This document shows, in pieces, positions 12,910 through 14,519 of a stretch of DNA of 64,000 nt (position 1 is the first letter of the stretch; each line of letters starts with the position of its first letter). The DNA is from Galbibacter marinus (GTDB taxonomy: Bacteria; Bacteroidota; Bacteroidia; Flavobacteriales; Flavobacteriaceae). Location of the stretch: assembly GCF_000300875.1 (NCBI RefSeq), contig NZ_AMSG01000004.1, positions 124,001-188,000 of the forward strand. Direction: 5' to 3'. The notes under the pieces are model-generated. The model was given only the letters and a program-made list of their open reading frames with translations, did no database searches and had not been told where the DNA came from. The position numbers were made by a program, and so were the translations under genes.

Positions 12910-13072
12910 GCGAATTAGGATATATTTTATAACATTTCTCCGCTGATGCTGTGAATTAAATGTGAAAAACGACACATTACAAATCATATCTCCTTTTAAG
13001 TCAGTTATTAACAATTTACGAAGCTAGAGTTTTACAGAGGCTTTCACGGAAATTAAAGAATTTATCAACAAA

Positions 13073-13107
13073 GTGGTAAAAAGTGGTAAAAAGTGATTAT
13101 TTGTGGT
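13073..13107 (+). promoter_or_regulatory. MraZ operator: four boxes at 10-bp period
   Basis: GTGGT at 13073, GTGGT at 13083, GTGAT at 13093 and GTGGT at 13103 are separated by exactly 5 A/T-rich bases each. This matches the direct-repeat MraZ boxes known upstream of dcw clusters (TGGGN/GTGGN units on one helix face). The fourth box contains the GTG used as start in the ORF track, so that start is probably non-functional. MraZ is expected to bind here and control its own operon. Confidence 0.8.
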
Positions 13108-13118
13108 AAATATTTCTC

Positions 13119-13126
13119 TATATTTG
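13119..13126 (+). promoter_or_regulatory. -7 promoter element of the dcw cluster
   Basis: TATATTTG is a perfect TAnnTTTG match just downstream of the last MraZ box. A TTTG at 13100-13103 is a candidate -33 element, but its 15-base spacing is shorter than the usual 17-23. Transcription would begin near 13133, leaving about 20 leader bases before the proposed TTG start at 13154. Confidence 0.55.
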
Positions 13127-13153
13127 AAAAGTAAACATTTAAAAGAGTTAGAC

Positions 13154-13636
13154 TTGATTCAATTTTCGGAAGAATATGAGTGTAAGGCAGATAGCAAGGG
13201 ACGCATTATGGTGCCTTCTTCTCTGCGCGCTAAATTGGCGCCCGTTTTGGGTGATGGTTTGGTGTTAAAACGCTCGATTTTTCAAAAATGCCTTGAGGTA
13301 TATACCATGGCAGCATGGGAAAAAGAAATGAAGCAGGTCGCAAAATTAAACCGTTTCGTTAAAAAGAATAATGATTTTATAAGGCAGTTCACCGCTGGAG
13401 TTCGAGTTGTAGAAATCGATTCAAATGGGAGATTGAGCATGCCGAAGAATCTTATTGCTTTTGCAGGAATCGAAAAAGAAGTTGTGCTTTCAGAATCCAT
13501 CGATCGTATTGAGATTTGGGATAAACAGCGCTATTACGATGTTTTAGATCAGGGAGCGGATTCGTTTTCTGATTTAGCGGAAGAGGTTATGGGAGGTTTT
13601 GAAATAGAACAAGAAGATGGAGATGGAATATCATAG
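13154..13636 (+). CDS. mraZ: Transcriptional regulator/cell division protein MraZ, TTG start
   Basis: DNA-binding regulator of the division and cell wall cluster, related to AbrB-fold proteins. Two MraZ repeats are visible: YECKADSKGRIMVPSSLRAKL and VVEIDSNGRLSMPKNLIAFAGI. The ORF track uses GTG at 13103, which lies inside an MraZ box and upstream of the likely transcript start, and adds 17 residues not seen in the family. The TTG at 13154 gives MIQFSEEYECKADSKGR, matching the usual N-terminus, and a protein of 160 residues, normal for MraZ. The 3' end overlaps rsmH by up to 20 bases. Confidence 0.85.
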   Translation: MIQFSEEYECKADSKGRIMVPSSLRAKLAPVLGDGLVLKRSIFQKCLEVYTMAAWEKEMKQVAKLNRFVKKNNDFIRQFTAGVRVVEIDSNGRLSMPKNLIAFAGIEKEVVLSESIDRIEIWDKQRYYDVLDQGADSFSDLAEEVMGGFEIEQEDGDGIS

Positions 13637-14519
13637 ATCAGTATTATTACAAGAGACAGTTGATGGTCTTAATATCAAAGAGGACGGAGTTTATGTGGAT
13701 GTTACCTTCGGAGGTGGAGGTCACTCTAAAGAGATATTAAATCGTCTCGGAGCAAAAGGAAAATTGTACGGTTTTGATCAAGATGAGGATGCTAAGAATA
13801 ATGCAATTGATGATGAGCGTTTTGTGTTGATTCCTCAAAACTTTAGACATATTAAACGTTTTTTGAAATTTTATGGTGTGCAAAGCGTCGACGGAATCCT
13901 TGGCGATTTCGGGGTTTCATCTCATCAGTTTGATGTTCCTGAACGTGGTTTTTCAACGCGTTTTGATGCGGATCTCGATATGAGAATGAGCAAACAAAAC
14001 ACCCTAAGTGCCTATGATGTGGTAAATACCTACGATCAAGGTGATCTTAAGCGTGTCTTTGGCCTTTATGGAGAGCTGAAAAATGCGGGAAGTATTGCGG
14101 CGGCTTTAGTTGAAAAACGGGCTGAGCAGCCAATAAAGACAACCGAAAATTTAAAGAATAGTTTACGAAAGTTTTTGCCAGCTTATAAAGAGAATAAAAT
14201 ATTAGCCCAACTCTACCAGGCTATTCGAATAGAGGTTAATCAGGAGGTAGAGGTGCTTAGAGAATTTTTATTACAGACACCAGAGTTAATTAAACAAAAA
14301 GGGCGATTGAGTTTGATAAGCTACCATTCATTAGAGGATCGTTTGGTGAAACGCTTTATAAGGAGTGGGAAGTTTGAAGGAGAAGTTGAAAAGGATTTTT
14401 ATGGAAACCCACAAGTTCCTTTTAAAAAGGTTTCTGGTTTAATTGTGCCTTCAAAACAGGAGATTGAAATTAATAGTAGAGCGAGAAGCGCAAAATTGCG
14501 AATCGCAGAAAAACTATAA
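13617..14519 (+). CDS. rsmH: 16S rRNA m4C1402 methyltransferase
   Basis: N4-methylation of C1402 in 16S rRNA using S-adenosylmethionine (also called MraW). The 300 residues start MEMEYHRSVLLQETVDGL and carry the SAM-binding loop YVDVTFGGGGHSKEIL. Family blocks GILGDFGVSSHQFD, ERGFSTRFDADLDMRM and LISYHSLEDRLVKRF follow. Met3 (13623) is an alternative start. The overlap with mraZ and the 4-base gap to ftsL place it in the dcw operon. Confidence 0.96.
   Translation: MEMEYHRSVLLQETVDGLNIKEDGVYVDVTFGGGGHSKEILNRLGAKGKLYGFDQDEDAKNNAIDDERFVLIPQNFRHIKRFLKFYGVQSVDGILGDFGVSSHQFDVPERGFSTRFDADLDMRMSKQNTLSAYDVVNTYDQGDLKRVFGLYGELKNAGSIAAALVEKRAEQPIKTTENLKNSLRKFLPAYKENKILAQLYQAIRIEVNQEVEVLREFLLQTPELIKQKGRLSLISYHSLEDRLVKRFIRSGKFEGEVEKDFYGNPQVPFKKVSGLIVPSKQEIEINSRARSAKLRIAEKL

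Follow-up and report, generated by a model that had tools for sequence, protein, structure and literature searches.

The window, by which we mean the whole 64-kb stretch of Galbibacter DNA that was analysed, contains mraZ and, directly after it, rsmH, so that mraZ is the first gene of the dcw cluster; ORFs resembling ftsI, murE, mraY, murD and ftsW come next, as judged from their translations only. The product of mraZ, read from TTG 13154, matches the TIGR00242 profile with 102.3 bits (cut-off 98.35) and contains two PF02381 stretches, and the solved MraZ structures include relatives of this protein. The features of the region upstream of mraZ are collected in Table 1.

Table 1. Features at the head of the dcw cluster (window coordinates; predicted positions are relative to the transcription start)
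Feature	Coordinates	Strand	Predicted position	Remarks
TTATCAACA element, DnaA-box-like	13062..13070	+	-69 to -61	11 bp upstream of box 1
MraZ box 1, GTGGT	13073..13077	+	-58 to -54	
MraZ box 2, GTGGT	13083..13087	+	-48 to -44	
MraZ box 3, GTGAT	13093..13097	+	-38 to -34	weak
MraZ box 4, GTGGT	13103..13107	+	-28 to -24	contains the GTG wrongly called as start in the ORF track
TATATTTG, -7 element of the Bacteroidota housekeeping sigma factor	13119..13126	+	-12 to -5	
Predicted transcription start	13131..13132	+		4-5 nt past the -7 element, after PMC6847099
mraZ, 160 codons, TTG start	13154..13636	+		TIGR00242, PF02381; start alignment; upstream stops in relatives
rsmH (mraW), next dcw gene, ATG start	13617..14519	+		TIGR00006, 300.6 bits; overlaps the end of mraZ

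Predicted promoter of the dcw cluster and start codon of mraZ

The initial annotation had placed a perfect promoter box downstream of GTG 13103, and this is indeed the case: TATATTTG agrees at every defined position with the TAnnTTTG -7 element of Bacteroidota sigma-A promoters and is kept in relatives. In F. johnsoniae the -7 consensus, TAHHTTTG, spans -12 to -5 and transcripts start 4-5 nt later (PMC6847099), and in F. psychrophilum TAnnTTTG is likewise placed at -12 to -5 (PMC9723704). From this spacing we infer a transcript start at 13131 or 13132, and therefore a message in which the codons GTG 13103 and TTG 13124 would be absent. The predicted mraZ leader, of about 22-23 nt, compares well with the median of 24 nt published for F. 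psychrophilum (PMC9723704) and with the mode of 23 nt in B. thetaiotaomicron (PMC7366714). With the known TAnnTTTG promoters of Bacteroidota (PMC6847099, PMC9723704, PMC7366714) this promoter thus shares a perfect -7 element and the leader length, but its upstream half is occupied by the MraZ array. No TTTG was found 19-22 bp upstream of TATATTTG, in the -33 region; TTTG at -33 is not a defining promoter feature in Flavobacteriaceae, where promoters are generally without a clear motif at this position and those of F. johnsoniae have no evident one (PMC6847099). A leaderless mraZ mRNA was discarded for the window, because 27 nt separate the -7 element from the start codon.

Three in-frame start candidates precede the MraZ domain, namely GTG 13103, TTG 13124 and TTG 13154. 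As the initial annotation had remarked, the ORF-track start coincides with the fourth box, since the six-frame ORF opens at GTG 13103. The reading frame is open from this codon, and mraZ might accordingly be supposed to begin there (or at TTG 13124), with the repeats being coding sequence. This is highly improbable: the additional residues MVNISLYLKSKHLKELD are not conserved and relatives have in-frame stops at this place, one of the two codons precedes the conserved -7 element and the other falls within it, and the MraZ model scores slightly lower from GTG 13103 (101.8 vs. 102.3 bits). In fact, among Galbibacter, Joostella and Robertkochia the codon aligned with TTG 13154 is GTG, TTG or ATG in 9 of 10 cases (in L008 the start is three codons further upstream), and an in-frame stop is found 3-30 bp before the start in 8 of 10 close relatives (L002-L005, L007, L009-L011), members of the same genus being among those with a stop between the array and the start. 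Such a stop is present in 54 of 69 family genomes. TTG 13124 was also rejected as a start for itself, as it falls inside the -7 element, and so was, from the sequence, the next in-frame ATG, at 13208, which would delete the first DXXXR motif. The position of the -7 element, the in-frame stops of relatives and the aligned starts independently support the earlier proposal that mraZ is translated from TTG 13154 and not from the GTG; a start-codon call of a kind that gene finders get wrong is thereby corrected. The comparison of upstream regions across Flavobacteriaceae that had been suggested together with this proposal shows that boxes, -7 element and start position are conserved.

In the 69 family genomes mraZ starts with TTG in 30, GTG in 21 and ATG in 18, that is, with a codon other than ATG in 51. 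In 39 of these genomes rsmH was examined as well, and its start was ATG in all 39, as compared to 20 TTG, 11 GTG and 8 ATG for mraZ (Fisher p = 2e-14). These counts indicate that a non-ATG start is a conserved, gene-specific trait of mraZ. Moreover, 20 of 69 mraZ starts have A-3, a positive determinant of initiation in F. johnsoniae (PMC6847099), vs. 22 of 39 rsmH starts. We read the non-ATG start as a possible brake on MraZ synthesis. A different arrangement was observed in 26 Weeksellaceae-type relatives (L014-L039), in which TAnnTTTG lies only 6-7 nt before the mraZ start and the start is always ATG; judging from this distance, their mraZ mRNAs would lack a leader, in agreement with a requirement for ATG.

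The MraZ-box array and its conservation

The repetition of GTGGT/GTGGT/GTGAT/GTGGT every 10 bases, noticed at first sight of the window, was confirmed, with a period of exactly 10 bp, and turned out to be unique in both the window and the genome. The four-box pattern occurs once in the 64 kb even when up to 3 mismatches are allowed (100 dinucleotide shuffles expect 0.00), and in the 3.57-Mb genome GTGGT-N5-GTGGT-N5-GTG and GTGG-N6-GTG-N7-GTGG are each single-copy, both only upstream of mraZ. The genome-wide motif search thus confines the GTG array, with its at least three GTG(G) direct repeats at a 10-bp period, to the mraZ promoter. Box 3 is a weaker form of the core; the nearest relatives have their weak form (GTGAC or GTGC) at box 2 and GTGGT at the other three positions.

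TIGR00242 finds mraZ in 59 of 61 family genomes and in 109 of 118 genomes of the phylum. The repeat unit is short and of low complexity, and the array might be regarded as a chance A-rich/GTG tandem repeat that has no function; we consider the probability of this negligible, because 131 of 141 mraZ upstream regions of the phylum keep an array with a period of 10 only, with conserved cores and drifting linkers. At least three boxes are present in 94 of these regions, Markov-shuffled controls gave 3.4% (at least two boxes) and 0.06% (at least three boxes), and periods of 7-9 and 11-14 were seen in only 2-13 of the 141. Two family members that were scored as array-less carry an array with an ATGG middle box, which brings the family to 69 of 69. 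The number of boxes is four in the clade of the window and three in most of the family.

The strict three-box motif was found in 74 of 101 family genomes with 75 matches (backwards control: 5). Since the sole extra copy (G186) lies inside the coding region of a transporter gene, the motif behaves as a single-target operator, and the scan of these 101 genomes with the strict motif revealed no wider MraZ regulon.

The boxes, their spacing, uniqueness and conservation, as well as the start codon, are direct readings of the DNA, from which we infer the binding of MraZ. Very likely, the array is the MraZ operator that heads the dcw cluster, together with the TTG 13154 start of mraZ; sequence, position, conservation and uniqueness all favour the autoregulation site that the initial annotation had proposed. 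Its remark that such sites are rarely described in this phylum fits the part of the literature that was covered, in which we found no description of MraZ sites in Bacteroidetes/Bacteroidota; the sites themselves are nearly universal there. A near-universal MraZ operator in Bacteroidota is therefore what the sequence comparison adds.

Similar sites are known from other phyla. The MraZ site of Burkholderia cenocepacia, shown by EMSA, consists of four 7-nt repeats with 3-nt spacers, and in both Burkholderia and E. coli the boxes are located downstream of -10, over the transcript start (PMC7761207). According to PMC8475190 (citing Fisunov 2016), the sites of Mollicutes are AAAGTG[T/G] direct repeats. 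With the B. cenocepacia and E. coli dcw clusters the window has in common GTG direct repeats with a 10-bp period, in up to four copies, directly before mraZ and in an autoregulatory position; the difference is that their boxes are downstream of -10, whereas those of the window are upstream of -7. The core here is GTGGT, as compared to what we take to be a TGGG-type core in those two species. Mollicutes share a nearly identical unit (AAAGTGGTAA here), the direct repeats and the presence of only one site per genome, but have another sigma factor and promoter type, and the sign of control is debated there.

Geometry of the array and sign of the proposed regulation

The distance between the last box and TAnnTTTG is 15 bp in 19, 16 bp in 46 and 25 bp in 2 of 67 family upstream regions, the window being among those with 16 bp; in the two 25-bp cases the proximal box has decayed. 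No TTGAC -35 was found near the array in family members with a detected array. Of 48 cases from other classes of the phylum, 34 have a TTGAC that precedes box 1 by about 30 or by 36-46 bp, and for this reason the array is predicted to be downstream of -10 in these classes. Family f4 of Bacteroidia looks intermediate, with boxes that overlap a TTATTTTG-like element. The window, then, departs from E. coli and Burkholderia, whose boxes overlap the start site; this placement is a feature of the proteobacterial form and not of MraZ operators in general. This comparison, which relies on promoters predicted from sequence, suggests that the position of the array with respect to the promoter switched between classes, from over the start site to upstream of -7 or vice versa.

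We propose that this region is the operator-promoter of the dcw cluster, through which MraZ would control its own operon. An oligomeric MraZ ring may touch the four GTGG boxes, which would all lie on the same side of the helix, from -58 to -24, and the -7-only sigma-A promoter would give a transcript from which MraZ is translated starting at TTG 13154. Given that the array covers the sites of sigma region 4 and of the upstream face of RNA polymerase, MraZ would most likely compete with the polymerase between -58 and -24 and act as a repressor, giving negative autoregulation, and the weak TTG start may additionally keep MraZ scarce. Repression rather than activation appears probable to us. It is not simply transferable from E. 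coli and Burkholderia, because here the boxes are upstream of -7 and not over the start site, and the rigid 15/16-bp phasing would also suit an activator.

The same operator might in fact serve for activation, with the boxes replacing the missing -33 element and the ring contacting RNA polymerase at a fixed helical phase. The -33 region has no TTTG, the distance between the last box and the -7 element is almost invariant (15/16 bp) over about 60 genera, and the four-box array is centred near -41; the lack of a -33 element, however, is unremarkable in view of the flavobacterial promoters described in PMC6847099. Reports from mycoplasmas disagree on the sign: according to PMC8475190, overexpression of MraZ in M. 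gallisepticum accompanied raised FtsZ, whereas the mraZ deletion mutant of M. genitalium shows repression. On the whole we regard activation, the main rival, as unlikely, and repression as the preferred reading. The difference in geometry between the classes makes the question of repression or activation testable.

A TTATYAACA element at mraZ, HU and dnaB

Box geometry, gene-specific non-ATG starts and a conserved TTATYAACA neighbour of the array go beyond the initial annotation. As for the latter, of the 67 family upstream regions with a detected array, 60 have TTATNNACA at 11 or 12 bp before box 1, as compared to the 0.06 predicted by its frequency in the remainder of these sequences. The words at these 60 sites are mostly TTATTAACA (30) and TTATCAACA (27). 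In the four-box clade the element keeps its offset from box 1 and is thus one helical turn further from the promoter. In the window, the intergenic region that holds the conserved element has a second TTATTAACA at 13005-13013, 57 bp further upstream.

The consensus of the E. coli DnaA box is TTATNCACA. This consensus is not matched by the TTATCAACA of the window, and only 1 of 60 same-family sites reads TTATCCACA. The TTAT..ACA frame is shared with the E. coli box, and exact TTATCCACA stands at the same mraZ position in the relatives L015, L036, L038 and L039; the window and most of the family differ in having A as the sixth base (TTATYAACA). The simplest candidate for the protein that binds this DnaA-box-like element is DnaA. 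By inspection only, an IHF-like site and an inverted MraZ half-site were both judged poor fits.

The word is single-copy at the mraZ operator vs. tandem at HU and dnaB. One or two copies of the 20-bp tandem TTATNAACA-N11-TTATNAACA are present in 58 of 61 genomes of the family; the backwards control had no match. Nearly all of 43 inspected tandem loci (own-genome HU copy counted twice, last 11 by a slightly looser pattern) are situated in the fmt-HU interval or immediately before dnaB, as at L241 2068-2096 (-), L242 2289-2317 (+) and loci L246-L286, the dnaB copy following accA; the exceptions are the five loci L259, L263, L280, L281 and L283. The family genomes without an HU/dnaB tandem are G023, which is also without mraZ, G025, in whose MraZ array the middle box is degenerate, and G182.

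No cluster of TTATYAACA words was found beside dnaA. Five conserved TTATNAACA-like or TTATTAACA-like words, on mixed strands and with offsets of 0, +11, +24, +35 and +50, are present downstream of rplS, 10 kb from dnaA (L289 1501-1559, L290, L294, L288). The intergenic region that begins with them is about 700 bp long, has no Rfam match itself and is a candidate for oriC or for the start of an RNA. Among iteron plasmid origins, TTATCCACA was found twice in Cruoricaptor, one of the relatives with TTATCCACA at the mraZ site, TTATCAACA in one Capnocytophaga plasmid, and neither in five others. On the Cruoricaptor ignavus contig (L280 1501-1529) the iterons are GAGTGCAATTCCGAA, and TTATCCACA occurs twice at a distance of 20 bp; the 365-aa protein encoded beside them (L280 1658-2755) has no Pfam or NCBIfam match, and a 27%-identical relative of it is annotated as a RepB-type plasmid initiator.

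Tentatively, we suggest that in Flavobacteriaceae a factor linked to replication may act directly next to MraZ at the dcw promoter, and likewise, through the 20-bp tandem, at the HU and dnaB promoters; the simplest assumption is DnaA, with TTATYAACA as a box specific to the family. If this is true, genes of replication, nucleoid and division would be wired into one small regulon, and the TTATYAACA element common to mraZ, HU and dnaB would offer a handle on the coupling of division and replication in a phylum in which this coupling has received little study.
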